NCBI GenBank assembly: GCA_001799485.1
Contig: MGTO01000043.1
Coordinates: forward strand, 1-32,428
Origin: Desulfuromonadales bacterium GWC2_61_20
GTDB lineage: Bacteria; Desulfobacterota; Desulfuromonadia; Desulfuromonadales; UBA2197
Reading direction: 5' to 3'
DNA length: 32,428 nucleotides
The first letter of the stretch is position 1, and each line of letters starts with the position of its first letter. Shown one piece after another: positions 11,456 through 25,689 of the stretch. Under the pieces are notes generated by a model. The model had not been told where the DNA came from and made no database searches. It worked only from the letters and a program-made list of their open reading frames with translations. A program made the position numbers and the translations under genes.

Positions 11456-12061
11456 TCACTTCTTCTCGGCCTGATGAATGAGTTCGACCAGGGCTGCGGC
11501 GATTTCGGCGTAGCCCTTGCCATTGGGGTGAACGTAGTCACTCTTGCGGGAGGGGCGCTGGAGGGTGTCGGCGATGATGTCGTCTGCAAAGGGGAGGTGC
11601 AACTCCTTGGCGATGCCGGCATAAAGGGGGGCCGTCTGCAGCAGCAGCCCCGGCTGCGGCACCCCGACGAGGACGACATCGGCACCGGCGGCCCGGGCCA
11701 GCCCGACCATCGCCCGGAGATTGGCGGCGAGTTCCTCCGGGTCGCGCTGCTGCAGCAGATCGTTGCCGCCATGACAGAGAATGACCAGGGCCGGGCGATG
11801 TTCGTCGAGGAGAGCAGGGAGGCGGGCGAGGCCGGTTGCCGACAACTCTCCCGGCATGCCGGCGTTGATCACGATGCGGTCGAGGAGGTTCTGGAGCACG
11901 GCCGGGTACGCTTCCCCGGTGCCGGCCCCGGTGCCGTAAGTCAGGCTGTCGCCGAAGGCCAGAATCACGGCATCCGCCGCCAGAGGGGTCAGGCGCGGAC
12001 CGCGGTCGCAGGCGACCAGGGGCAACAGGAGAAACAGGAAAAGGAGCAGGCGTATATTCAT
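11456..12061 (-). CDS. SGNH/GDSL esterase lipoprotein (TesA/lysophospholipase-like)
   Basis: This hydrolase of 201 residues cleaves ester or thioester bonds of acyl chains. A type II signal ends in the lipobox LVAC (Cys18), so it is probably a membrane-anchored lipoprotein. The SGNH blocks are in order: AFGDSLTYGTG (Ser39), NAGMPGE (Gly near 68-71), CHGGND (Asn100) and DYVHPNGKGY (Asp175, His178). Length and blocks fit arylesterase/TesA proteins. It stands alone on the minus strand, divergent from the cytochrome gene (spacer 12062-12251) and convergent with the retropepsin gene. The spacer has a G8 run at 12135-12142. No clear promoter could be identified in it. Confidence 0.92.
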   Translation of the reverse strand: MNIRLLLFLFLLLPLVACDRGPRLTPLAADAVILAFGDSLTYGTGAGTGEAYPAVLQNLLDRIVINAGMPGELSATGLARLPALLDEHRPALVILCHGGNDLLQQRDPEELAANLRAMVGLARAAGADVVLVGVPQPGLLLQTAPLYAGIAKELHLPFADDIIADTLQRPSRKSDYVHPNGKGYAEIAAALVELIHQAEKK

Positions 12062-12251
12062 TGCGAGGCCCTCCCGAGTTGGCTACGCCGGTATTGTGGC
12101 ATGGCCGGGGTGCAAAAAGAAAGTCTCGACGCCCGGGGGGGGCTTTGTGCTAACGGGGGAGGGGGCAATCATGCGCCCAAGGGGAAAAACTGGAGCGTCT
12201 TCACGAAATTGACGGGACTGCTGCTTAACGTTTGCCAAGAGAGGAGCGACA

Positions 12252-13694
12252 ATGAAAACAGCCGTAGGTGCGGTCATCCTGGGTTTGTCAATGCTGCTTG
12301 TCCCCGGAATTTTACTGGCCGACGAGGTTTTCCCCGTCGACCGGGATCTCTACCCCTGGTACCCCTCGCTGGTGCGCTGGGAGAAGACCGCGGCCGAGTT
12401 CCATCCCCCGGCCGTCTGTGCCGATTGCCATCGGCAGCAATTCGAGGAATGGAGCGGTTCACTGCATGCTCTGGCCTTCGTCGACCCGGTCTATCAGGGG
12501 GAGCTGCAGAAAGGGATCAAGGCGGTCGGTCGCGACATTGCCCGGCAGTGCGAGGGGTGCCATTCGCCGGCGGCCATGGTGACGGGGGAACTGGCCAAGA
12601 GCAAATTCGGCAAACTCTCCAAACTGGCGCTGGCCGGAGTCTCCTGCGATGTCTGTCATTCGGTGAGTGGCGTCACCCATCAGCAGACGCCGAGTCGCGA
12701 ACCGGAAAACGGCTCGTTGGTCCTGGCCCCCGGTCGCGCCGACGGCAGCTTGGTCAAGCGCGGCCCGATTGCGCCGCCCGCGGCTTGCGGAGGCGGTTTT
12801 CATGACTGCGCCGAATCGTCCCTGCACCGTTCTTCCGACCTCTGTGCCTCCTGCCATCAGGTGCTCCATTTCGATAAACACTTCCCCCTGGAAGCGACCT
12901 ATCAGGAGTGGAAGGGGAGCGTTTATGCCCAAATGGACATCGGCTGCCAGGATTGCCACATGGTCGATACGGCGACCTTCTTGCGCTCCTCCGCCTTTCT
13001 CAAGCCGGAACGCGCCGAGTACCGGCACTTTTTCAATGGCGCCAACTACCTCCTCTATCACCTCGCCCAAGCGGCGGCGCTCAAGTCCGGGGACGCAGCG
13101 GCGGCACAGCGCTTTGCCCGCCAGTACGATATGGCGGTGGCCCGCTTGCAGGCTGCGGCCCAGGTGGAAGTGCTGCCGACTTATGTCGCGGGACAGCTGG
13201 TCGAAGTGCGGCTGCGGGTCATGAACTTGCGCGCTGGCCATGCCCTTCCCACCTCCCTGACCAATGTGCGGCAGATGTGGCTGGAGCTCACGGTGACGGA
13301 CGAGACGGGAAAGGTGCTGCGCAGCAGTGGCAAGCTCGATCCGCAGGGGCAGCTGGAGGCAGACACCCGCCTGTTCAATTCCGACGGCATGGGCGAATCC
13401 ATGCACTTTGCCATTGACCCTTGGGTGGTGATCGGCTTCTCCCGCCATGACACTATTCCGCCCCACGGTTACCGTGATGTCGTCTATGGTCTGCAATTGC
13501 CGAAAGGGGTCGAAACGGTCAATGTCAAGGCGCGCCTGCGCTATCGCCAGGCCGACCAGAAAGTCGCGGAAGCGCTCCTGGCCGCCGTCCCGGCCGATAT
13601 CAACCTCAAGGCCATTTATGGTCTTGAGCGGGTCCCGCAACTCCCCGTTGTCGATATGGCGGTCACCTCGGCGAAACTGGCCGTGCAGCGGTAA
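12252..13694 (+). CDS. Periplasmic pentahaem c-type cytochrome (cytochrome c554-like)
   Basis: This exported electron-transfer protein of 480 residues has a signal peptide ending near residue 23 (LLADE). Five haem c-binding CXXCH motifs are seen: CADCH (56-60), CEGCH (100-104), CDVCH (132-136), CASCH (198-202) and CQDCH (232-236). All lie in the first half, whose pattern resembles the cytochrome c554/c-prime fold. Residues 315-470 contain no haem and look like a beta-rich domain (VRLRVMNLRAGHALPTSLTN), often found attached to such cytochromes. A redox role in periplasmic or extracellular electron transfer is inferred from the family and the apparent Geobacter-like host; no partner oxidoreductase is nearby. 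The start ATG follows GAGAGGAG. A hairpin terminator ends the transcript. Confidence 0.93.
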   Translation: MKTAVGAVILGLSMLLVPGILLADEVFPVDRDLYPWYPSLVRWEKTAAEFHPPAVCADCHRQQFEEWSGSLHALAFVDPVYQGELQKGIKAVGRDIARQCEGCHSPAAMVTGELAKSKFGKLSKLALAGVSCDVCHSVSGVTHQQTPSREPENGSLVLAPGRADGSLVKRGPIAPPAACGGGFHDCAESSLHRSSDLCASCHQVLHFDKHFPLEATYQEWKGSVYAQMDIGCQDCHMVDTATFLRSSAFLKPERAEYRHFFNGANYLLYHLAQAAALKSGDAAAAQRFARQYDMAVARLQAAAQVEVLPTYVAGQLVEVRLRVMNLRAGHALPTSLTNVRQMWLELTVTDETGKVLRSSGKLDPQGQLEADTRLFNSDGMGESMHFAIDPWVVIGFSRHDTIPPHGYRDVVYGLQLPKGVETVNVKARLRYRQADQKVAEALLAAVPADINLKAIYGLERVPQLPVVDMAVTSAKLAVQR

Positions 13695-13715
13695 GGACGG
13701 GGGCGGTACGAGTGC

Positions 13716-13765
13716 AAAAAAAAGAAGGAGGCCCCCGGAATCGACCAGGGGCCTCCTTCTTTGTG
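13716..13765. terminator. Bidirectional terminator between cytochrome and ketosynthase genes
   Basis: AAAGAAGGAGGCCCC (13721-13735) pairs perfectly over 15 bp with GGGGCCTCCTTCTTT (13748-13762) around a 12-base loop. Runs of A on the left (13716-13723) and T on the right allow it to stop both the plus-strand cytochrome transcript and the minus-strand ketosynthase operon. Confidence 0.93.
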
Positions 13766-13782
13766 TCCGGCCCTGCCCCGTT

Positions 13783-14931
13783 TCAGACCACGGTCAGCAA
13801 GGCGTAGCAGATGGAGAAGCGGCCGCTCTCGGGGACGTAGCAGAGGACCTTGTCGCCGGGCTTGACGCGATCGGAGCGCAGCAGTTCTTCGAGGATGATG
13901 AAGACCGAGGCGCTGCCGGTGTTGCCCTTGTCGGGGAGGTTGGTGTACCACTTCTCCAAGGGGATATGAAAGCCGATGGCGCGCAGCCCTTCGTAGATGG
14001 GGAGGCGGAAGTAGTCGGAGGAGTAGTGGGCGACGAAGATGTCGACCTCTTCCGGGCGGATGCCGCGTTTGGCCTGCAGCCGCGGGATGGCGCGGTCGGC
14101 GGTAGCCGGGACGATCTCCTGGTCGAGGAGTTTGACGTCCTGCTTGACCAGCAGGGCATGGCTGGCCAGCATCTCCTCGGGACAGGCGAATTCGCGCCAG
14201 CCGGTGAGGGTGCCGTCGTCGTTCTTGATCGCTCCGGCGTACATGCAGGCGTCGAGTTCGTTGGCGAAGGAGAAGATGTCGATCCATTCGATCTTGAAGG
14301 CGCGCTTGCCCGGCGTCGGTTCCGGCGCGAGGAAGGCGGCGCCGGCGCCGTCGGAGAGCATCCAGCGCAAGAGGTCGGCGGAGAAGGCGAGGGCCGGCTG
14401 GTTTTCCAGCTGGGCGGCCGTCTCTTCGCCGATGGCGCCGGCCATGCGCGAGCGCATGAAGGACGAGGCCTGCTCCGAACCGGTGGCGACGGCGTTCTTG
14501 CTCTGGCCGAGGGCGACGTTCATCGCCGCGTACTTCAGCGCGGTCATCCCCGAGATGCAGATGCCGGCGGTGCTGACGATCTCGCAGGGGGTACTCTTCA
14601 GTTCGCCGTGCACCATGGAGGCATGGCCGGGCATGAGCTGGTCCGGCTGGGTGGTGCCGCAGGCGAGGCATTCGATATCGTCGATGGCGAAGCCGGCGTA
14701 GGGTTGGAGGCGGCGCACCGCCTCGGCGGCGAGCTGGGCGTTGGTATGGGTGGTCTTGCCGGTGGCCGGGTCGATGGCGTAGTAGCGGGTCTTGATCTTG
14801 TTGTTGCGCAGAATCAACTGGCGTGTACGCGACGGCAGCTGGTTGACCATGCCGAGGATCTCTTCCATCTGCTCGTTGGCGACCGGAGCATTGGGCAGGA
14901 AGGCGGCGATGTCGGTGATGTAGACGTTCAT
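13783..14931 (-). CDS. Beta-ketoacyl-ACP synthase III-like ketosynthase (StlD/DarB-like)
   Basis: This thiolase-fold condensing enzyme has 382 residues. The expected Cys-His-Asn triad is visible: Cys125 in STAGICISGM, His302 in VAHYSS and Asn337 in DKGNTGSASV. The N-terminus (YITDIAAFLPNAPVANEQME) and the insert near 155-190 differ from housekeeping FabH. They recall the StlD/DarB group, which condenses a beta-ketoacyl unit with another acyl chain to make cyclohexanedione or dialkylresorcinol precursors; OleA-like head-to-head condensation is the alternative. It is the second gene of a minus-strand unit, 20 bases after the radical SAM gene, so the two are probably co-transcribed and act on one product. 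No ACP, aromatase or fatty-acid genes are in the window. Class is firm; the StlD/DarB subgroup is a recollection of family style, not a search result. Confidence 0.82.
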   Translation of the reverse strand: MNVYITDIAAFLPNAPVANEQMEEILGMVNQLPSRTRQLILRNNKIKTRYYAIDPATGKTTHTNAQLAAEAVRRLQPYAGFAIDDIECLACGTTQPDQLMPGHASMVHGELKSTPCEIVSTAGICISGMTALKYAAMNVALGQSKNAVATGSEQASSFMRSRMAGAIGEETAAQLENQPALAFSADLLRWMLSDGAGAAFLAPEPTPGKRAFKIEWIDIFSFANELDACMYAGAIKNDDGTLTGWREFACPEEMLASHALLVKQDVKLLDQEIVPATADRAIPRLQAKRGIRPEEVDIFVAHYSSDYFRLPIYEGLRAIGFHIPLEKWYTNLPDKGNTGSASVFIILEELLRSDRVKPGDKVLCYVPESGRFSICYALLTVV

Positions 14932-14951
14932 GCGGATGTGGTCCCCGTGTT

Positions 14952-16241
14952 TTAGATTTTGGCGTGCGGATGGGTCAGGTGAAACAGCTCGGCGTAGCGC
15001 CGGTAGAACTCCTCTTCCGGCAGCCGCGTCGGGACGACGGCATTGGAGAGGGTGTAGTAGTCGAGGTCAAAGTTGACAATGCGCCCCTGCATCTGCCGGT
15101 GCAGGGCGGTCCCCGGCAGCGGGGTGAGGACGGTGAAGATCGGCAGCGCCACCGGATTATCCTGCATGTAGCGGAGCAGATTATCGAAATCGGCGTGGTC
15201 GTAGTCGGGCGAGACGATGTAATCGCCGACCACACTGATGCCGATGTCGCGGAGAATGGCGAGGGCCTCGCGATTGACGGCGACGCTGTTGGCCTTGTTC
15301 AGCTGGGCTAGCCCGAGGTCGCTGATCTCCTCGAAGCCGATGACGACGGTGCGCAGCCCGGCCGCCTTCCACTCGCGCATCAGCGCGGGGTGACGGACCA
15401 CGGTGTCGGAACGGACATCGCCGAAGAAGTCCTTCTTGATGCCGGCCGCCACAATCGCCCGGCAGAGGGCGCGAGCATGCTCGGGATTGCCGAAGGTGTT
15501 GGCATCGACCAGGCGGACGAAGGGCACCGCGCCAAGGAGTTCGATGTCGCGGATCACCGCGGCGATGGAGCAGGCCAGGTAGCGCCCGCCGGCCTGACCG
15601 GCGATGCAGCAGAAATTGCAGTCGAAGGGGCAACCGAAGGCCGAGGCGACGAAGCCCATCGGCAGCCCGAGGAGGGTGTAGTGGCCGCGGTTGGCGGCGA
15701 CCAGATCGTAGCGCGGCGGCATCTCCTCGACCAGATCGCGGGGGTCGAAGACCCGCGGCGTGTAGCGCAGGGTCGCACCGGGGCGGACACGGGCGACGCC
15801 GGGGATGTCCGGTTGCTTTTCGCCGCGGCCGAGAGCATCGACCAGTTCGCGGAAGCTTCCCTTGCCGAGGCCGACGACGACGAAATCGATGCCGTCGCGA
15901 TGGAAAAAGTCGGGGTCATTGCTGGCATGGATGCCGCCGACCACGACGGTGGCGCCGCAATCCGCCTTGGCCTGCGCGGCAATATGGCAGGCCGTGTTGG
16001 CCTCGCAGGTGACGGCGGTAATACCGACCAGATCGGGGCGCAGGGTGGCGAGGCGTTCGGCGAGGGCGTCCGGCTCGACCTTGAGGTCGAGGATGGCGAC
16101 CTCGTGGCCGTGAAGATTGCCGGCGAGGACCTCGAGAGCGAGGGGCTCGCCGCGAAAAATCTGCTTGATCGAGGTGATGCCGAAACGTTCTTCGGGGATA
16201 CTGCGACCGCAGTTGGGCGGGTTGATCAGCAGAATCTTCAT
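14952..16241 (-). CDS. B12-binding-domain radical SAM protein
   Basis: This protein of 429 residues uses a [4Fe-4S] cluster and S-adenosylmethionine for radical chemistry. The N-terminal part (about 1-145) is a Rossmann-like cobalamin-binding domain (MKILLINPPNCG, LVGITAVT, VVVGGIHAS) that lacks a classical DxHxxG ligand, as is common in this class. The radical SAM core starts at about 195, with the cluster cysteines Cys204, Cys208 and Cys211 in CPFDCNFC. The C-terminal region (to 429) contains LTPLPGTALHRQM, typical of the HpnJ/HpnP/BchE-type family. Likely reactions are methylation of an unactivated carbon or a ring rearrangement; the substrate is unknown. It is the first gene of the unit with the ketosynthase. 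The ATG at 16241 has no good Shine-Dalgarno sequence, and the leader has competing hairpins (16284-16330). Confidence 0.87.
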   Translation of the reverse strand: MKILLINPPNCGRSIPEERFGITSIKQIFRGEPLALEVLAGNLHGHEVAILDLKVEPDALAERLATLRPDLVGITAVTCEANTACHIAAQAKADCGATVVVGGIHASNDPDFFHRDGIDFVVVGLGKGSFRELVDALGRGEKQPDIPGVARVRPGATLRYTPRVFDPRDLVEEMPPRYDLVAANRGHYTLLGLPMGFVASAFGCPFDCNFCCIAGQAGGRYLACSIAAVIRDIELLGAVPFVRLVDANTFGNPEHARALCRAIVAAGIKKDFFGDVRSDTVVRHPALMREWKAAGLRTVVIGFEEISDLGLAQLNKANSVAVNREALAILRDIGISVVGDYIVSPDYDHADFDNLLRYMQDNPVALPIFTVLTPLPGTALHRQMQGRIVNFDLDYYTLSNAVVPTRLPEEEFYRRYAELFHLTHPHAKI

Positions 16242-16283
16242 CGCGGGGTGCGCCGGGCTAAGGGTCGAGTCTGCGCGGTAACT

Positions 16284-16330
16284 GCGTCCGCCAAGAAAGA
16301 ATGCGGACGCTCCGGCAGTGATGCGTCCGC
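16284..16330 (-). promoter_or_regulatory. Three-segment hairpin region in the radical SAM leader
   Basis: GCGTCCGC (16284-16291), GCGGACGC (16303-16310) and GCGTCCGC (16323-16330) are exact 8-base units. The middle one can pair with either neighbour, giving two mutually exclusive stems in the leader of the radical SAM gene. Read on the minus strand, the first stem is followed by ATTCTTTCTT, so it may also end the upstream block (16429-23926). Read on the plus strand, the right-hand stem is followed by CTTTTT. Confidence 0.45.
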
Positions 16331-16333
16331 CTT

Positions 16334-16360
16334 TTTACATTTTTTTCACCGATTTGTAAA
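16334..16360 (-). promoter_or_regulatory. Weak candidate promoter upstream of the radical SAM/ketosynthase unit
   Basis: In an AT-rich island, minus-strand TTTACA (16360-16355) and TGTAAA (16339-16334) lie 15 bases apart. They match five and four positions of the sigma70 boxes, but the spacing is short. The start would fall near the first hairpin segment. Confidence 0.28.
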
Positions 16361-16428
16361 TTTGAAAGTTGTTTGGGGTTGTGGGAAAAAAGCGAAAATC
16401 GACGGTAATCCCGGCGTTTGTCGTGAAT

Positions 16429-16839
16429 TCAGTCGTGCAAGTCGAGGAGGGGACGAGCGCTGTCGATGTGAAATATGGCCAGCGCGCGCAAGCGGCGGGC
16501 GGCGCGGCGTCCGGCCCGGCGCTCGGTCTCCGCCAACAGGGCGGCGAAGAGTTCCCCGTCGCTTTCCAGGCGCTGCAGCCGCAGGTAGAGGCGCACTCCC
16601 TGCCACTGGGAGAGGGTCGCAGCGGGCCGGGCGACGAGGAAGACGGCACCGGGATGCTGGCGTAGGTTACGCAAGGTACGGTTGGCACCGAGGGCAAGAA
16701 CCAGGGTCGCTCCGTCGTCCAGAAGCCGCGCTGAACCGAAGATGGCGACATTAATTTCGCCGGCCGCGTCACTGGTGCTCAGGGAGCCGACGACAGGCGC
16801 GTTGTTGCCGAACAGTTCGTGCCAGGTGTCAGGGGGCAT
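16429..16839 (-). CDS. Pyridoxamine 5'-phosphate oxidase-like flavin split-barrel protein
   Basis: This small protein of 136 residues resembles the PNPOx-like FMN-binding split barrel. The start (HELFGNNAPVVGSLSTSDAAGEINVAIFGSARLLDDG) gives the typical first strands, and NRTLRNLRQHPGAVFLV the usual flavin-edge segment. It is shorter than true PdxH, so an FMN- or haem-binding reductase-like role is more likely than pyridoxal phosphate synthesis. The start overlaps the end of the alpha/beta-hydrolase gene by 11 bases, with GGAGAG before the ATG, so the two are translationally coupled. It is the last gene of the minus-strand block beginning with the CHASE2 cyclase. Substrate and cofactor are not shown by the sequence. 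Confidence 0.78.
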   Translation of the reverse strand: MPPDTWHELFGNNAPVVGSLSTSDAAGEINVAIFGSARLLDDGATLVLALGANRTLRNLRQHPGAVFLVARPAATLSQWQGVRLYLRLQRLESDGELFAALLAETERRAGRRAARRLRALAIFHIDSARPLLDLHD

Positions 16840-17692
16840 CGTTCTCTCCGGCCAATTTGCGCAGGGGGATGCTCAGGGAGCTGACGAAGTCGGTCCAGCT
16901 CCTGCCGTAGAGGGGGGCATCGACACTGCCACAGTCGCTGTGGTCGGCACCGGGGATGACGACCAGGGTCTTTGGCTGTGGCGCGCGGGCATAAATCCGC
17001 TCGGCCATGGACAGCGGCGCAATGTGGTCGGAATCGCCATGAAGCATGAGCAGCGGACTCTGCAGGTGACCGATGCGCCCAAGGTTGTCAAAACTGCTGT
17101 CGAGACTCCACCAGCCGAAGAGGGCATAAGTCCACGGTGTCTTATGCCAGGCAAGCTCGCGCAAGCTGGTGAAGGAGCACTCGAGGACGACGCCTGCTGC
17201 AGGTCGCCCGACAGCCAGATTGAGGGCGACAGCGGCGCCGAGGGACTGTCCATAGTAGATCATCCGCTCTGGCGTCCAGCCGCGGGTGTTGAGCAGGTCG
17301 AGAGCTCCCAGGGCATCGGCCAGCAGATCCTCCTCATGCTCCGCGCGGCCACTGCTGGCGCCGAAGCCGCGGTAGTCGAAGATGAAAACCGGAAAACCGA
17401 GTTCATGGAGGGCGATGAGTTTGTCGAGGTGCTGCGAGATATTGCCGGCGTTCCCCTGGCAATAGAGAATCAACGGCATTTTTGCGCGGCCGGGGAGATA
17501 CCAGCCATAGAGCATGACCCCATCACGGGAGGGAAAGTGCAGCTCCTCGTAAGCGAGCCCGCGATCGGCGGGGGTAGCGACAAGCTGCCGTGGCGAAGAG
17601 AGGATGCTGCGGGTGGCGACCCCGCAGCCGCTGATCGCGCTGAGCAGCAGCATGAGGGCGAGGACCGGGCGCATCCGCAAGATCATGGTCAT
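16829..17692 (-). CDS. Alpha/beta-hydrolase lipoprotein (BEM46/ABHD13-like)
   Basis: This protein of 287 residues has a lipoprotein signal (lipobox AISGC, Cys23) and an alpha/beta-hydrolase fold. The nucleophile elbow is YGQSLGAA (Ser150). The acid is Asp222 in HGDSDHIAP and the base His251 in PGADHSD. The oxyanion segment YCQGNAGN (77-84) and FDYRGFGASSG are typical of the BEM46/ABHD13-like group. An esterase or peptidase acting at the inner face of the outer membrane or in the periplasm is inferred. The ATG at 17692 is followed by a second ATG two codons on (17686). The gene lies 52 bases after the small exported protein, and its end overlaps the next gene. Confidence 0.88.
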   Translation of the reverse strand: MTMILRMRPVLALMLLLSAISGCGVATRSILSSPRQLVATPADRGLAYEELHFPSRDGVMLYGWYLPGRAKMPLILYCQGNAGNISQHLDKLIALHELGFPVFIFDYRGFGASSGRAEHEEDLLADALGALDLLNTRGWTPERMIYYGQSLGAAVALNLAVGRPAAGVVLECSFTSLRELAWHKTPWTYALFGWWSLDSSFDNLGRIGHLQSPLLMLHGDSDHIAPLSMAERIYARAPQPKTLVVIPGADHSDCGSVDAPLYGRSWTDFVSSLSIPLRKLAGENDAP

Positions 17693-17744
17693 TTCCGGCT
17701 ATCCGCAGGTTGCCAAGGTTGGGTCGGGGCGTTTCTGCCGGATC

Positions 17745-18296
17745 TTAGCGGGGTGCGTTCGCCGGAGCCGGAGTGGCGCCGCCGGCCGCTTCGGCGGCCG
17801 GCGCCGGTGGCGCCGCCGAGTTTGGTTCCGCGGCGGGAACCGCCGCCATGGTTGTCGGCGTTTCGGCGACGGCTGCTGGCATGCTCGCCGGCGGCGTTCC
17901 CTGGAGCTGCACGAGCGCTTGCCGGGCGTCGCCGAGTAACAGGCTCTCAGGGTAAGTGTGGACAAACTCGGCGAATTGGTCGAGGGCCTTGCGCGCATCG
18001 CCGGCGTCGGCGCTCTGGCAGGCTTGCCGGAAGGCCTGCAGTTCGTCCTCGGCGATGGTCGGCAGGGTGCTTTCCCCCTTCCAGTAAAGAGTGTCGGCCG
18101 ATTTGTCCTGGCTGCCGCGCACCCCTCCGACGGCCGTCGTGACTGCCGCCTTTTTCTGTGGGGCGAAGCCTTCAAGCTTGCTTTTGAGCTGGGCCCAGAA
18201 GCCACCCTGATTCGCAGCGGGGGCGCAGTGGCCGCGGAAGGGGGCGGCGATGAGAAAGACGACGATAATTGTGGCAAGTGCGATACGGCTGTTCAT
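17745..18296 (-). CDS. Exported protein with TPR-like core and Ala/Pro-rich tail, function unknown
   Basis: This protein of 183 residues is not recognised. It has a signal peptide (IALATIIVVFLIAAPFRGHC, cleaved near residue 25) and a linker with KLEGFAPQKKAAVTTAVGG. A helical stretch at about 80-130 (LQAFRQACQSADAGDARKAL, then a QFAEFVHTYPESLLLGDAR segment) looks like one or two TPR-like hairpins. The last 50 residues are almost only Ala, Pro, Glu and Thr, a flexible tail. AGGAGG precedes the start. It sits directly after the large transglutaminase/TPR protein gene (51 bases), so a role as periplasmic partner of that protein is likely but unproven. Confidence 0.75.
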   Translation of the reverse strand: MNSRIALATIIVVFLIAAPFRGHCAPAANQGGFWAQLKSKLEGFAPQKKAAVTTAVGGVRGSQDKSADTLYWKGESTLPTIAEDELQAFRQACQSADAGDARKALDQFAEFVHTYPESLLLGDARQALVQLQGTPPASMPAAVAETPTTMAAVPAAEPNSAAPPAPAAEAAGGATPAPANAPR

Positions 18297-18347
18297 GGGA
18301 TCCTCCTGCGCGACAAGGGATTGCTGCGGGAAAAAATGGTTGCGGTT

Positions 18348-21300
18348 TCAGTAGCCGGGGCCGAGGGCCAGGGCGAGTCCGCGAAATTTATCGGCCGTGG
18401 CCGGGTCGAGTTCGAGAGCGGTGCGAAAGGCGCTCGCCGCAGTTTCCTTCTCGCCCAGGCGCAGGCGGCAGCGCGCCAGGTTGACCCAGACATCGGCATC
18501 CTGTGGCTCGATGCGTACCGCTTCGGCATAGGCCTTGGCGGCGTCGACATAGCGCTCCGACAAGAGATAAACGTTGCCGAGGTTGTTGGCGACGGCGGCA
18601 CTGTCGGGGAGAAGGCCCCTGACTTTTTCAAAGAGACGGGCCGCCTCTTCCAGTTCTCCCGCCCGGGCATTGATGATGCCGAGCTGCAGCAAGGCGCCGG
18701 TGTCGTCGGGGTTGACGCGGAGACGGGCGATATGGGCGCGGCCGAGGTTGAGGGCCCTGATCTTGCGCAAGGTCGGCAACTCTTCGCGATAACGGGCTTC
18801 CAGCGCCACCTTCTGCACCAGCGGCGCCCGCCATTCGGTCATCGCCAGATTGGCCGGCTTGAACTGCTCCCAGTTGGCCCGGGTATCCATCAGGGTCAAC
18901 CCCTGGTCCTTCCACTTGGCGTAGTTGGCGGCCCCGGCTTCCCAGGCCTTCATGAAGGGAGCGCCGATCTGGGTCACTTCGACGGGGACCCAGAGACTGC
19001 CGTCGTGTTCGACAAAGAGGGCGGCGAGGCCGTTGGGCGGAGCACCACTCTCCATCTCGGTGGAGAAGATCAGGAACATGTGCCCCGGCACCTCGACCAC
19101 CTTGGTGCGGATGCCGAGGCTCTCGAGGAGGGAGGAGTAGAGGCCGACGAGGTCGTCGCAGTCCCCCGATTTGCGCTGCAGGGTTTCGCGGGGGTATTGC
19201 AGGTAGTCGACAAAATCGACCTTGCCCGAGGTGAGCTGATAGGGATTGCTCGGATCCTGCAGGTAGCTGATGCCGTGAACCCCGAGGGCGTCGAAGATGA
19301 CCCCGGCGTAGAGGATCGGGTCGGAGAACTCGCTGTACTGGGTGACGATGCCGCGGGAAAAGTCGAGAACGATGGGGTCCTTGGGGGTGACGAAGGCGGC
19401 AAAGCGGCCGCGTTCTTCCCACAGCATGCGATGTTTTTCGAAGATATTGACGGAGAGGGTGCGGGAATAGGTCTTGAGATCCTGGTTCTTGTAGAAGGAG
19501 GCGGTGATTTCTGTCTGCACCGCCGTATCCTCGGTGACGTTGAGGACATGGGTATTGAAGACCGCCTTGAGGACGACCTCCTTGCTCTCCCGCGGGCCGA
19601 GATTGCTGATTTCCAGCTCCGTCGGAAAATCCATGAACTCCTTGATGGCGAAGGCGACCTTGATCTTGGAGATCTGATCGCGGGTGTTGTTGGTGATGCG
19701 GATGCTCCCCATCCCCTCGTTTTCATAAATCTTGTAGGTGTTGGAGAAGATGTCGTGGAGCTCGACAATACCGATTTCGATGGGCGGCTTGGTCGCCACC
19801 AGGGTCGTGACCTTGACCGGCACCCGGGCGCTCTCGACGCCGTCGACGCTGACGGCGGAAATATGGAAGGTGTAGGCGGTTTCCGGTTCGAGGGAACCTT
19901 CATAAAAGGTGGGAACCTCGACTTTGCCCAGAGGAACGGTCTTCCCCTCGATGTCCCGATAGATGTTGTAGCCGGCGAGAAACGCGGTGCCGCCGGGACG
20001 CCAGGTCAGATCGACGGACCATTCCTGGGGGATGGCGCTGATCTCCTCGGGAGGTGAGGCCGCCGCCTTCGCCGGCATGGCCTGGACCTCCCCGCTCCAG
20101 TTGCTCTCGTTGCCGGAGTGGGCGCTGGCCGTGACCCGGTAGTAATAGGTGACTTCCGGAGAGACGTCGGCGTCGACCCACGCTGTCCCGGTACTGGCGG
20201 CAACCTGTTGGTAGCCGCTGGCCTGACTGCGGCTGCGGTAGATGTGGTAGTCGCTGACGTAGCTTTCCGGACTCGCCGCCCAGGTCAGGGCCACCCGGCG
20301 CATCCCCGCTTCCGCCTTGGGACTGGTGGGAGGGGACGGGGTGTAGGAAAAGCGGAAGTTTTGCTGGCGGTTGTTGCTGGTATCGGCGACGAGGAGTTCG
20401 GTGTCGGTCAGCAACAGGAGGGCGGCACTGTTGCCGAATTCGCCGGGACCCTGTCCGGGGGAGCCGAACTCGCGCTGAAAGTTGCCGGTCGGGCTGAAGG
20501 TTTTGACCGTCTGGCTCTTGCCGTCAAAGACGAAAATTTCATTGGCGCTGACGGCCAGGGCGAGGGGGCGTTGCAGCCGCCCCGGCCCGTCGCCGCTCCC
20601 GCCCATTTCGACCAGGCGTTCGCCGTCGTGGTTGAAGACCGAAACGCTACGCCGCCCCTGGTCGAGGACGAGGAGGTTGTCATTGCCGTCGAGGGCCAGG
20701 GCGGCCGGGCTGGCGAAGACCACTCGCTCCCCCTTGTTGGCGATCTGGCTGAGATAGGTGCCGCTGGCACTGAAGATCTGCACCCGGCTGTTGCCGCGGT
20801 CGGCGACATAGACGATCCCCTTGGACGAGACGGCAAGGTCGGCCGGATCGGAAAAATAGCCTTCGCCCGAACCGGACGAGCCGAACTTGTGGACGATCTT
20901 GCCCTGGTCGTCGAGCTTGAGGACGGCCGCATGCTCTGCGTCGAGGACCCAGAGACCGTCATCGGGACCGAGGGCGAGAGCGACGGGGTGCCACTTCGGC
21001 AGGGTGATGGACGTTTCCTCCTTGCCGTCGCCGAGGACGACAATGGTGCGGGTTTTGGCGCGGAGGGAGTAGAGCTTGCCGCTCTTGCTCCGCGCCATGC
21101 GCCCGGGCTGGGGCAGCGGCGCTTCGCCGTTCCAGAGGACCGAGGTCGGGGTGATGCTGCGGTCGGGGAGGAGGGAGCGCTCCACCGCGTCGGGCTGGAG
21201 GACCTGAACCGCGCCGCGGCTGCGGTCGCTGACGAAGACCTGGCCCGAGCCATCGACGGCGAGACCGTCGAGGGCGAGGAATTGCGAGCTGTCGTTGCCG

Positions 21301-22055
21301 CGGGCGCCGAAACAGAAGAGCTGTTTGCCGGAAAAGTCGTATTTGCAGACCTTGAATGTCTGCTGCTCGATGAGGTAAAAACCCTCGTCGTCGGTGACGA
21401 TGGCCGAGGGGCCGCGGGCCGCGGCGAGGCGGCTGAGAAACTCCCCGTCGATGCTGTAGACCTTGACCGCTCCGGCTTCGCCATCGATGACATGCACCCG
21501 CCCGCGCGGATCGACGGAGATCCCCACCGGCTTGCGCAACAGGGCATCGCCGCTGCCGGCGCGACCGATGACGCGGATGAAGACGCCGTTGGGGCCGAGG
21601 ACCTGGATGCGATCGTTGCCGGTGTCGGCGACGAAGATGAGATCGCCCCAGGTGGCAATGGCCGCCGGTTCGTCGAACTCTTTGAGCCCGCTCCCCTCGC
21701 GACCGATATCGCCAAGATGGCGACCCTCGCGGTCGAAGATGACGACGCGGCCGAGTTCGCTGTCGACGACGAGGGTGCGATCCTGAATGAAGGCGACCCC
21801 CCGCGGTCTGACCAGGAGCGGTTTCTCCTTCTTCCCCTGTGGTTTCCCGCCGAGGATGCGCAGCTTTTCGCCGTCGGCGGCGCTGACGGTGACACTCCAC
21901 TCCTGCTGGGCGGTGAAGACCAGTCCGCTCCGGTCGACGGCCACCGCCACCGGTTTCACCGCCGGCAGAGTGGAGACGTGGGTAATTTGGCGGAGGGCCG
22001 AGGCCGCGCCGGGGAGGGCGAGGAGGAGAAGGACGAGGAGGAGTTTGCGGATCAT
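18348..22055 (-). CDS. Large exported NHL propeller / FN3 / transglutaminase-like / TPR protein
   Basis: This exported protein has 1235 residues. Order: signal peptide (1-20); a beta-propeller region of many NHL-type repeats (about 25-570; units such as VFVADTGNDRIQVLG and VYVADRGNSRVQIFS); two fibronectin type III domains (about 578-765; AGYNIYRD and YYYRVTASAHSG); an immunoglobulin-like stretch (about 770-890); a transglutaminase-like domain with KSGDCDDLVGLYSSL (Cys966) and VPGHMF (His992) followed by SLWVPVEVT; and about three C-terminal TPR units (about 1120-1225). Cys and His are placed as in active transglutaminase/peptidase-like enzymes. It could crosslink, cleave or only bind envelope proteins. 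It overlaps the cyclase gene by four bases (ATGA), so the two are made together. I know no named protein with this whole domain order. Confidence 0.88.
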   Translation of the reverse strand: MIRKLLLVLLLLALPGAASALRQITHVSTLPAVKPVAVAVDRSGLVFTAQQEWSVTVSAADGEKLRILGGKPQGKKEKPLLVRPRGVAFIQDRTLVVDSELGRVVIFDREGRHLGDIGREGSGLKEFDEPAAIATWGDLIFVADTGNDRIQVLGPNGVFIRVIGRAGSGDALLRKPVGISVDPRGRVHVIDGEAGAVKVYSIDGEFLSRLAAARGPSAIVTDDEGFYLIEQQTFKVCKYDFSGKQLFCFGARGNDSSQFLALDGLAVDGSGQVFVSDRSRGAVQVLQPDAVERSLLPDRSITPTSVLWNGEAPLPQPGRMARSKSGKLYSLRAKTRTIVVLGDGKEETSITLPKWHPVALALGPDDGLWVLDAEHAAVLKLDDQGKIVHKFGSSGSGEGYFSDPADLAVSSKGIVYVADRGNSRVQIFSASGTYLSQIANKGERVVFASPAALALDGNDNLLVLDQGRRSVSVFNHDGERLVEMGGSGDGPGRLQRPLALAVSANEIFVFDGKSQTVKTFSPTGNFQREFGSPGQGPGEFGNSAALLLLTDTELLVADTSNNRQQNFRFSYTPSPPTSPKAEAGMRRVALTWAASPESYVSDYHIYRSRSQASGYQQVAASTGTAWVDADVSPEVTYYYRVTASAHSGNESNWSGEVQAMPAKAAASPPEEISAIPQEWSVDLTWRPGGTAFLAGYNIYRDIEGKTVPLGKVEVPTFYEGSLEPETAYTFHISAVSVDGVESARVPVKVTTLVATKPPIEIGIVELHDIFSNTYKIYENEGMGSIRITNNTRDQISKIKVAFAIKEFMDFPTELEISNLGPRESKEVVLKAVFNTHVLNVTEDTAVQTEITASFYKNQDLKTYSRTLSVNIFEKHRMLWEERGRFAAFVTPKDPIVLDFSRGIVTQYSEFSDPILYAGVIFDALGVHGISYLQDPSNPYQLTSGKVDFVDYLQYPRETLQRKSGDCDDLVGLYSSLLESLGIRTKVVEVPGHMFLIFSTEMESGAPPNGLAALFVEHDGSLWVPVEVTQIGAPFMKAWEAGAANYAKWKDQGLTLMDTRANWEQFKPANLAMTEWRAPLVQKVALEARYREELPTLRKIRALNLGRAHIARLRVNPDDTGALLQLGIINARAGELEEAARLFEKVRGLLPDSAAVANNLGNVYLLSERYVDAAKAYAEAVRIEPQDADVWVNLARCRLRLGEKETAASAFRTALELDPATADKFRGLALALGPGY

Positions 22056-23926
22056 GGAGAACTCCGTGTTGGCAGGGTCGCCGCCGGGGCGGGAACGGAC
22101 AGCCGGCGGTCAGGCTGCTGGTTGCCGGAAGGTGCGGAACGCAGCCCTTTAAGGGCGTAAATCTCGATGGGGAGCTGTTTTCCCTTGACCAGGACCGGCC
22201 CCAGGGGGTCGGCGATAACCAGTTGCCTGACCCGCTCGTAGAGGGCTTCGGTCATGACCGGGCAATTGGCCGTCCGGCTTTCGTTCTGGATGCGGAAGGT
22301 GAGATTGACGGCGTCGCCGATGACGGTGTACTCCATCTTCTTGCCGGCGGCGCCGAGGTTGCCGGCGATAACCTCGCCGGTATGGAGGCCGATGCCGCAG
22401 GCGATCGGCTCGGTTCCTTCCTCCTGCCACTTCAGGTGCAATTGGCGCAGCCGCGCGAGCATGTCGAGGGCGCAACTCACCGCCAGTTCGGCATGGTTGT
22501 CCTGGGGGAGGGGCGCACCCCAGTAGGCGAGGATGCCGTCCCCCATGAATTTGTCGAGGGTGCCGTCATGATCGATGATGGAATGGGTCATTTCGGCGAG
22601 ATATTCGTTGAGGGTGGTGACCACCTCGCGCGGCGTGCGTTTTTCGCTGTAGCCGGTGTAGTTCTTGACGTCGGCAAAGAGAATGGTGACGATGCGGCTT
22701 TCGCCGCCGACCTTGGCCAGTTCGGGGTTCTTGACCAGCTGATCGACGATCTTGGGGGAAACGTAGCTGGAGAACATGGCCCGCACCTGGCGGGATTTGC
22801 GGTCGAGGAGGATGAAGCGCAGGTAGGAGACGGCCGAGTAGACCAGGACGATGACCAGGCAGGGATAGACGATGCTGACCCAGTGGCCGGCATCGAACAA
22901 GAGCAGGTTCAGCCAGAGCCAGACGCCGGTGATGACGACGACGAGGGGAAAGGCGGCGGCGGCGCGCAGGAGCGAGGCGACCAGCGCCACGAGCAAGCCG
23001 AGGAGGATGATGGCGACCAGATCGCCGAGGGCTTCGAGACCGCCATGGTGCATGAAGTCGCCGGCCAGGATGTTGTCGGCGATGTTGGCGTTGACTTCGA
23101 CCCCCGGCATGTTGCTGGAGACCGGGGCGATGCGCATGTCGTAGATGCCGATGGCCGTCGGTCCGACCAGCAGGACCTTGCCGCGCAAGGACTCGGGCGG
23201 CACCCGCCCTTTGAGGACATCGACGAAGGAGAAGCGTGCGAAGGTCCCCGCCGGACCGCGGTAATTGATGAGAAGGTAGTGCTCGCCGTCGGTGGGAACG
23301 GTGTGCTCGCCGACAGAGAGGCCATAGGGCTGCGCCGTGAAGCTGTCGCTCCCCAGGACGGCCATGCTCGCCGCCAGGGCGAGGGAGGGATGGAGGCCGT
23401 CGGAGTGGGGGAGGACGAGGCGGGTCCAGCGCAGGACCCCGTCGTCGTCGGGGAAGACGTTGATGTGGGCAAGGTTGCGGGCCGCCGCCCGCAGCCCCGG
23501 CAACGGCTGCAGCGGCGTCGTGGTGCCGCCGTCGGGGGCCAGGGTGAAGGCTTCCGCCAGGGTCGTGCGCCCCGAGGCTTTGATCGCCGCCGCCAACGCC
23601 CGGTCGATGGCGCTCGACTGGGGTTCGGGGAAGAGGACATCGAAGACCAGACCGCGAGCGCCGGCGGCGCTGGCGGTCTCGATGAGGGCGGTGAAGTGCT
23701 CGCGGCTCCAGGGAAAGCGCCCCAACTCCGCAATGCTCTTGTCGTCGATGGCGATAATTGCTATAGTCCCGGCAGGTTTTTTCATCCCTTGGCGGGCACG
23801 CATGCGGAGGTCGTAGGTCCGGGCCTCGAATCCCTCCAGGAGAGGCAGCTGGACGTAGTAGAGCAGGACGACCCCGCCGATGAGGAGCAGGGTCAGGATC
23901 GGGACGCTTCGGCCGACTCTTTTCAT
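22052..23926 (-). CDS. CHASE2-domain class III adenylate cyclase
   Basis: This membrane-bound cyclase has 624 residues. An N-terminal TM (VPILTLLLIGGVVLLYYV), a periplasmic CHASE2 sensor (about 30-325) and three TM helices (about 330-400) precede the cytoplasmic catalytic domain (about 405-600). Metal-binding Asp419 (LFADVKNYTG) and Asp463 (FMGDGILAYWG) are present. The substrate region KKMEYTVIGDAVNLTFRI has the Lys/Asp pattern expected for ATP, so cAMP is the likely product. I chose ATG 23926, which places a short basic stretch before TM1. A longer frame opens at 24058 but runs into the start of the divergent HD-GYP gene. No strong ribosome site lies before 23926. Four-base overlap couples it to the exported NHL/transglutaminase protein, suggesting that the periplasmic state controls cAMP. 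Confidence 0.92.
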   Translation of the reverse strand: MKRVGRSVPILTLLLIGGVVLLYYVQLPLLEGFEARTYDLRMRARQGMKKPAGTIAIIAIDDKSIAELGRFPWSREHFTALIETASAAGARGLVFDVLFPEPQSSAIDRALAAAIKASGRTTLAEAFTLAPDGGTTTPLQPLPGLRAAARNLAHINVFPDDDGVLRWTRLVLPHSDGLHPSLALAASMAVLGSDSFTAQPYGLSVGEHTVPTDGEHYLLINYRGPAGTFARFSFVDVLKGRVPPESLRGKVLLVGPTAIGIYDMRIAPVSSNMPGVEVNANIADNILAGDFMHHGGLEALGDLVAIILLGLLVALVASLLRAAAAFPLVVVITGVWLWLNLLLFDAGHWVSIVYPCLVIVLVYSAVSYLRFILLDRKSRQVRAMFSSYVSPKIVDQLVKNPELAKVGGESRIVTILFADVKNYTGYSEKRTPREVVTTLNEYLAEMTHSIIDHDGTLDKFMGDGILAYWGAPLPQDNHAELAVSCALDMLARLRQLHLKWQEEGTEPIACGIGLHTGEVIAGNLGAAGKKMEYTVIGDAVNLTFRIQNESRTANCPVMTEALYERVRQLVIADPLGPVLVKGKQLPIEIYALKGLRSAPSGNQQPDRRLSVPAPAATLPTRSSP

Positions 23927-24045
23927 GCGCCACAAGGTAGCAGGAAAAATCCTGTCCTGTAAAGGGGGAAGTGCTCCCCCCGCGGTCGCCGTACGCCCCT
24001 GTTCCGGCGTCTTTTTTTGCCGATTATTCCTGCGCGAGGTGGCCC

Positions 24046-25689
24046 ATGGCCAACGCAACTTCGGACAGTCTGCTCGATCGCATCGAAAAGCTCAATGCCA
24101 TCGGCGTCGGTCTCTCCGCGGAGAAGAATGCCGAACGGTTGATGGAGATGATCCTGGTCGGCGCCAAGGGGATCACCTGTGCCGACGGCGGCACCATCTA
24201 CTCGGTCACCGACGACCGCCGCCTCCGCTTCGAGATCATGCTCACCACCTCCCTCGGCTTCGCCATGGGGGGGACCAGCAACGTCGCCATCCCCTTCGAA
24301 CCCCTCCCCCTCTACCAGGCCGACGGCACCCCCAACACCCAAATGGTCGTCAGCCACGCCGCCCTCACCGGCGAGGTCGTCAATATCCCCGATGCCTACG
24401 AGGCCGCCGGCTTCGATTTTTCCGGAACCCGCGCCTTCGACCAGCGCACCGGCTACCGCTCCCGCTCCTTCCTGACCGTGCCGATGAAGAACCACGAGGA
24501 CACCATCATCGGCGTGCTGCAACTGATCAATGCCACCGATCCCGCCAGCGGCGCGGTCGTGCCTTTTACCGAAACCGACCAGCGCCTCGTCACCTCCCTG
24601 GCCTCGCAGGCCTCCGTCGCCCTGACCAAGAACATCCTCATCCAGGACATGAAACGGCTCTTCGATGCCATGATTCAGCTGGTGGCGGCGGCCATCGACG
24701 AAAAATCGCCCTATACCGGCGGCCACTGCCGGCGCGTACCGGTGGCGGCGATGCTTTTGGCGGAAGCCGCCAGCAACTGCCAGGCCGGTGCGCTGCGGGA
24801 TTTCAGTCTCGACGAGGCCGGTCGTTACGAACTGGAGATTGCCGCCTGGCTCCACGATTGCGGCAAGATGACGACCCCCGAATATATCGTCGACAAGGCG
24901 CGCAAGCTGGAAACGATCTGCGACCGGATCGAACAGGTCGATACCCGTTTCGAGGTGTTGCGCCGCGACGCCGTCATCGAACTGCTGCAAGGAAAACTGG
25001 CGGCGCAGGAGCGCGGCGAGGGGGGGGGGGCGGCCCTTGTCGCGGCCTCCCAGGCCCGGCTGGCCGAACTCGAAGCCGATCGTGAATTTCTCCGGCGCTG
25101 CAACACCGGCGAAGAGTTCATGGCCGAGACCGACCGGGACCGGGTGCGGGCCATCGCCGAACGCTACCGGTGGGTCAACCCCGCCGGCGTGCAGGTACCC
25201 CTCCTGACGGTCGATGAAATCGAGAACCTGACCATCCCCCGCGGCACCCTCAATGAGCGCGAACGCACTATCATCAACAACCATATCGTTGCGACCATCA
25301 AGATGCTCGAATCCCTCCCCTTTCCCAAACATCTGCGTCACGTTCCCGAATTCGCCGGGGGGCACCACGAACGCATGGACGGACGCGGCTATCCGGCCGG
25401 TCGCACCGGCGCGACGATGTCGGTGCAGGCGCGGATCATGGCGGTGGCCGATGTCTTCGAGGCCCTCACCGCCAGCGACCGCCCCTACAAAAAGGCCAAG
25501 ACCCTTTCGGAAACCCTCAATATCATGGGGAAGATGGCTCTCGACCAGCACATCGACGGCGAACTCTTCCAGGTCTTCGTCCGTGACCGGGTCTACCTCG
25601 ATTATGCCCGCCGTTTCCTCACCCCCGCGCAGATCGACAGAGTCGATCACGGAGCCATCCCCGGTTATGTCGACTTTCCCGGCGCCTGA
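24046..25689 (+). CDS. GAF - HD-GYP c-di-GMP phosphodiesterase
   Basis: This soluble protein of 547 residues has an N-terminal GAF sensor (about 10-190) and an HD-GYP domain (about 205-535), which hydrolyses cyclic di-GMP. Active-site residues are complete: His227 (TGGHCRR), His270-Asp271 (WLHDCGKM), His413 ([11 protein letters not shown]), [11 protein letters not shown] (440-450) and [18 protein letters not shown] roughly 120-residue insert (about 285-405) splits the HD part. It includes a G11 run at 25020-25030 that encodes Gly-Gly-Gly in a loop. The ATG at 24046 follows GAGGTGG; the frame is open back to 23971, but the extra residues look non-native. It overlaps the next kinase gene by 23 bases. 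Confidence 0.95.

Follow-up and report, generated by a model that had tools for sequence, protein, structure and literature searches.

The window considered here, a 32,428-nucleotide stretch of DNA from Desulfuromonadales bacterium GWC2_61_20, carries, as a unit of two genes, the ring-forming module of a dialkylresorcinol/arylpolyene (flexirubin-like) pathway, the remaining genes of which are located elsewhere in the genome. In this unit a ketosynthase of DarB type is preceded by a B12-binding radical SAM (rSAM) enzyme, which occupies the place taken in other genomes by the aromatase DarA; upstream of DarB, rSAM and DarA exclude each other. Judged from sequence and gene order, rSAM would have taken over the step of DarA, that is, the maturation of the ring produced by DarB, most likely by radical oxidation to resorcinol, with a probability of about 0.48. 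The system is a variant of a known pathway, in which the step assigned to the rSAM family is, as far as could be tested, new.

The ketosynthase gene (13783..14931, minus strand) encodes a protein of 382 aa, which reaches 556 bits with the NCBIfam model NF005293 of the StlD/DarB family (cut-off 450), matches the StlD structures 5gk0 and 5gk2 at E=3e-120, and possesses the Cys125, His302, and Asn337 triad invariant in 66 aligned relatives. This agrees with the original prediction, where an StlD/DarB-like condensing enzyme with an intact triad was described. The identity of the protein as the housekeeping KAS III, FabH, which would have spoken against that prediction, was rejected (TIGR00747, 61 bits versus a cut-off of 292), and the exception model NF053539 for DarB sensu stricto gave 470 bits, below its cut-off of 550. 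Photorhabdus StlD, a stilbene ketosynthase (PDB 5gk0), is a full-length homolog of the window DarB with the identical triad but has R32, E167, K185, and W254 (window numbering), residues that characterise DarA-paired enzymes and that most rSAM-paired DarBs lack. Positions 32, 167, 185, and 254 tell most DarA-paired from rSAM-paired types; as partner-specific residues they were nevertheless rejected, because the DarBs of loci L013 and L014, where DarA was re-acquired, keep rSAM-like residues at most of them, and these residues therefore track ancestry and not partner. Enzymes of the StlD/DarB family form 1,3-cyclohexanedione from a beta-ketoacyl and an enoyl thioester, and the window DarB is expected from its family to make 2,5-dialkylcyclohexane-1,3-dione. 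The resorcinol/cyclohexanedione-type chemistry suggested earlier for this pair agrees with this family and with the dar genes described below, and remains predicted.

The second gene (14952..16241, minus strand) encodes a protein of 429 aa with both the B12-binding (PF02310) and Radical_SAM (PF04055) Pfam domains, a CxxxCxxC motif corresponding to Cys204/208/211 and invariant in 27 relatives, and a predicted fold (AF2, mean pLDDT 76) resembling TsrM, AprD4, OxsB, and MgmA. By domains, motif, and fold it is a member of the B12-binding radical SAM superfamily, its use of cobalamin being predicted, and the B12-type radical SAM assignment made previously from the three cysteines is borne out; the fold does not tell a methylase from a non-methylase. 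The hopanoid C-3 methylase HpnR (TIGR04367) is the best-scoring curated family and has an equal domain layout; however, the window rSAM lies far under its cut-off (178 versus 650 bits), has DarB as an obligate partner, and shows no hopanoid context within the window. Identity with BchE was rejected likewise (TIGR02026, 119 versus 481 bits), so that neither the hopanoid nor the chlorophyll enzyme named in the original prediction as a possible refutation applies. A second B12 rSAM of the same genome (G000:C135:120-1319, L131) is 38% identical to the window rSAM and nearer to HpnR, at 233 bits, yet also below 650.

Both genes are separated by 20 bases (14932..14951, minus strand; usually 7–36 bases in relatives), and the unit is closed by an intrinsic terminator-like hairpin of 18 pairs with a T-run (13721..13762, minus strand), which may serve both strands; the close spacing and the strong terminator reported before were thus found again. 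Upstream of rSAM there is a gene for a small, flavoprotein-like protein of PNPOx_N fold (16429..16839, minus strand; 136 aa; Pfam PF01243, 30.0 bits versus a cut-off of 28.1), which is possibly a third member of the unit. Its homologs precede rSAM in the window and in 10 of the 41 long rSAM loci examined, and a gene adjoining only about a quarter of such loci is not general enough to account for the missing DarA, so the PNPOx-like protein was rejected as the missing aromatase. The rSAM and PNPOx-like genes are 187 bases apart, and between them a GC-rich inverted repeat at 16290-16335 (GCGGACGC...GCGTCCGC) is followed by T-runs on the plus strand; the repeat has no Rfam match, and no plus-strand gene was seen to end there. 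No riboswitch, cobalamin or other, upstream of the pair was matched by Rfam in window positions 12000-19000. Further away (18348-24058, minus strand) a 1235-aa NHL/TPR/fn3 protein gene overlaps end-to-start with a gene for a CHASE2-adenylate/guanylate cyclase. No further biosynthetic partner of the pair was recognised inside the window.

This last observation would favour a stand-alone two-gene biosynthetic system, as was proposed originally. The claim that other biosynthetic genes are lacking stands for the window but fails for the genome, where a 6-kb contig, C92, contains genes for an ACP, an ABC permease, an ATPase, DarH, DarG, a PagL-like protein, a chain-length-factor-like protein (CLF), and a partial KS; DarH on this contig exceeds the NF053550 cut-off, while DarG was found with a profile built in this analysis. 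Hence DarH, DarG, ACP, ABC transporter, and KS occur together in one genome with the pair, whereas no DarA aromatase adjoins DarB there and the B12 rSAM fills its slot. In most relatives the pair adjoins genes for two ACPs, an ABC-2 permease and its ATPase, DarH (NF053550, 466 versus 300 bits), a DarG-family protein (NF053536, 142 versus 70 bits), a PagL-like protein, a FabF-like KS with a CLF-like partner, and an LpxL-like acyltransferase; the acyl carrier genes that the original prediction suggested seeking elsewhere are among them and on C92. Among 118 relatives, 39 genomes have DarB together with DarH, 3 have only DarB, 2 only DarH, and 74 neither (Fisher 3e-25), so 39 of the 44 genomes with either gene have both. 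Split layouts occur in near-complete genomes as well, the distance between DarB and DarH being about 106 kb on a single contig in G042 and about 41 kb in G095. In view of the partners on C92 and in relatives, a self-contained pair is highly improbable.

According to published work, DarB is the cyclase and DarA the aromatase of dialkylresorcinol (DAR), both being encoded in clusters with similar kinds of genes (PMC3949708, PMC3992019), and expression of darB and darA of C. pinensis gave DAR (PMC3992019). The gene content of the relatives' clusters agrees with the published dar, flexirubin, and arcuflavin clusters (PMC3949708, PMC3992019). The DarA-DarB module of such clusters in Chitinophaga pinensis and Azoarcus sp. 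BH72 (PMC3992019, PMC3949708) resembles the window pair in having a StlD/DarB-family ketosynthase with a second enzyme directly upstream, and the clusters further share DarG, a DarH/BtrH-like protein, ACP, ABC transporter, and KS, while their aromatic ammonia-lyase, LolA, and MMPL exporter recur in genomes related to that of the window. They differ in that the flavodoxin-like aromatase DarA is absent here and a B12 rSAM is found in its slot, and in that the cluster of the window genome is divided between two contigs. In G015, G016, and G104, three genomes in which the reading was extended, genes for a GT2-DUF2062 protein and for a further three B12 rSAMs come next; the G015 cluster additionally encodes an aromatic ammonia-lyase, LolA, an MMPL exporter, a thioesterase, and one more KS, homologs of which are present in G104.

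The exchange of DarA for rSAM was followed in a phylum sample of 395 genomes, 33 of them with DarB, and in the order-level relatives. Directly upstream of DarB the 33 phylum genomes have rSAM in 19 cases and a DarA-type gene in 13, both together in none, with a contig end in the remaining one; in the order-level set the rSAM orthologs take this place in all untruncated loci examined. The DarA-type gene, which occurs at loci of Bacteroidetes and of certain Deltaproteobacteria (L013-L015), encodes a flavodoxin-like protein of about 305 aa with a hydrophobic C-terminus. We infer that it is DarA from its position, its occurrence in Bacteroidetes, and its fold rather than from comparison with a characterised DarA sequence; its AF2 model is weak (pLDDT 60), and only the N-terminal half of the model, which is flavodoxin-like, was relied on. 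In Azoarcus and Chitinophaga the DarA aromatase is also adjacent to DarB. With the DarA profile no full-length DarA was detected in the searched rSAM-paired genomes and no match in the window genome (G000, 79% complete), and conversely the 13 DarA genomes of the phylum have no rSAM ortholog. The only order-level DarB genome searched that has a full-length DarA, G047, lacks an rSAM ortholog.

Orthologs of rSAM were found only in genomes with DarB, in 38 of 38 cases among the relatives (Fisher 9e-27) and in all 19 cases in the phylum; they are cleanly set apart from the next paralogs, which show at most 39% identity. Such pairing, which the original prediction had proposed to look for, is shared by dozens of genomes spread over many families, and chance is thereby excluded. 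DarG, DarH, ATPase, permease, ACP, and KS/CLF are common to DarA-type and rSAM-type clusters. Several arrangements deviate from both types. In G047 (L121:3-1019, L122:989-1924) a 170-aa, possibly ferritin-like, protein is encoded upstream of DarB and the DarA-type gene lies on another contig; a Prevotella nigrescens plasmid carries a lone StlD/DarB ketosynthase (L132:9989-11125) that follows a TetR regulator and beside which neither DarA nor rSAM is annotated; and a Neomarinimicrobiota DarB (L017:9989-11833) is contained in a 613-aa frame, possibly a fusion, with neither DarA nor rSAM next to it.

When 57 DarBs are placed in a tree with StlD as root, the DarA-paired enzymes are basal, and a single clade (100/97) takes in all rSAM-paired ones, which indicates that rSAM was gained once. 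The DarA-paired DarBs of L013 and L014 nest within this clade (96/96), so DarA returned at least once and the tree forces at least two changes of partner; in genus g279 one species has rSAM and another DarA. Replacement by rSAM and reversion to DarA, with the remaining cluster unchanged, are expected if both proteins serve one step. Oxygen as a driver of the swap was tested with the terminal oxidase PF00115 and received no support: this gene is present in 25 of the 43 genomes with rSAM and in 4 of the 13 with DarA (p=0.12), so terminal oxidases are not more frequent among the DarA carriers of the phylum.

On these grounds it is probable that rSAM performs the same step as DarA, and, if this is so, aromatisation would be somewhat favoured over other modifications of the ring. 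In the proposed mechanism DarB would join two fatty-acid-derived thioesters, a beta-ketoacyl and an enoyl, into 2,5-dialkyl-cyclohexane-1,3-dione, and rSAM would act on this ring where DarA acts elsewhere. The 5'-deoxyadenosyl radical of rSAM could take a ring hydrogen, a second electron would pass to its cobalamin or cluster, and the ring would tautomerise to resorcinol, which DarH, DarG, the ABC transporter, ACPs, and KS/CLF (C92) would then acylate and export as in flexirubin-type pathways. In its fullest form, that of a cobalamin-dependent radical SAM aromatase which converts cyclohexanedione to resorcinol and serves Desulfuromonadales and further Desulfobacterota as a non-homologous replacement of DarA, with a single gain and one or more reversions, the proposal is made tentatively. 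A parallel exists in Mg-protoporphyrin ester cyclases, where the B12 rSAM BchE and the diiron AcsF are unrelated enzymes of one cyclase step (PMC4944227), and BchE is known for oxidative non-methylating chemistry with a possible desaturated side product (PMC13142503). The likeness is that either a B12 rSAM or an unrelated enzyme serves one oxidative ring step depending on the organism; the difference is another substrate, the window rSAM scoring well under the BchE cut-off. In the literature searched, no paper was found that places radical SAM enzymes in a common pathway with dialkylresorcinol, DarA, or DarB, and a plasmid search for such a combination of DarA/DarB and radical SAM also gave nothing.

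The principal competing explanation is that rSAM is a C-methyltransferase acting on the cyclohexanedione or resorcinol ring or on an alkyl chain, the product being either a methylated cyclohexanedione that does not need DarA or one aromatised by another enzyme, e.g., the PNPOx-like protein. B12 rSAM enzymes are predominantly methylases (PMC13142503), the methylases TsrM and MgmA are among the fold matches, HpnR is the nearest curated family, though far under its cut-off, and terminal-oxidase content does not part DarA from rSAM carriers. However, a pure methylase is not expected to exclude DarA everywhere, nor would DarA be expected to replace it again inside the rSAM clade; DarH and DarG, which presumably act on resorcinol, are kept in both types, and the PNPOx-like gene is too infrequent at rSAM loci, so that methylation is regarded as less probable than oxidation, though as a serious alternative. 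Still less probable is that rSAM acts before condensation, by desaturating, methylating, or rearranging an acyl-ACP that DarB takes as substrate, or that it modifies the polyene part, its seat upstream of DarB being a matter of operon convenience. Three further B12 rSAM genes, one of them TIGR04072, which are situated in the arylpolyene part of these clusters, lend some plausibility to such a role, but other B12 rSAMs are found near DarA-type clusters too (L102, L106) and hence do not account for the DarA/rSAM exclusion, and only the rSAM of the pair stays with DarB where the remainder of the cluster is far off (L056, L062, and the window).

The presence of rSAM in the place of DarA suggests that the finishing of the ring has evolved twice, with unrelated enzymes, and a B12 radical SAM family without a characterised member is now tied to a defined pathway step and a few candidate substrates. 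If rSAM does aromatise the ring, cobalamin-dependent radical SAM enzymes would, to our knowledge, gain a reaction new to them, and the exchange would be a clear instance of non-homologous replacement, which can be tested by swapping the two genes. Flexirubin-type arylpolyene-dialkylresorcinol lipids, so far associated with Bacteroidetes and Proteobacteria (e.g., Azoarcus), may also come from Geobacter-like bacteria, in which annotators should not expect DarA.

The three B12 rSAM genes of the arylpolyene part are arranged in tandem (L135:12958-17040, plus strand; L136:4205-8303; L137:8724-12825), and one of them belongs to TIGR04072, the “ladderane” lipid-biosynthesis rSAM (713 versus 360 bits). 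This model exceeds its cut-off in 36 of 42 DarB genomes versus 9 of 76 others, so clusters called “ladderane” in Desulfobacterota may in fact be of the arylpolyene-dialkylresorcinol kind.
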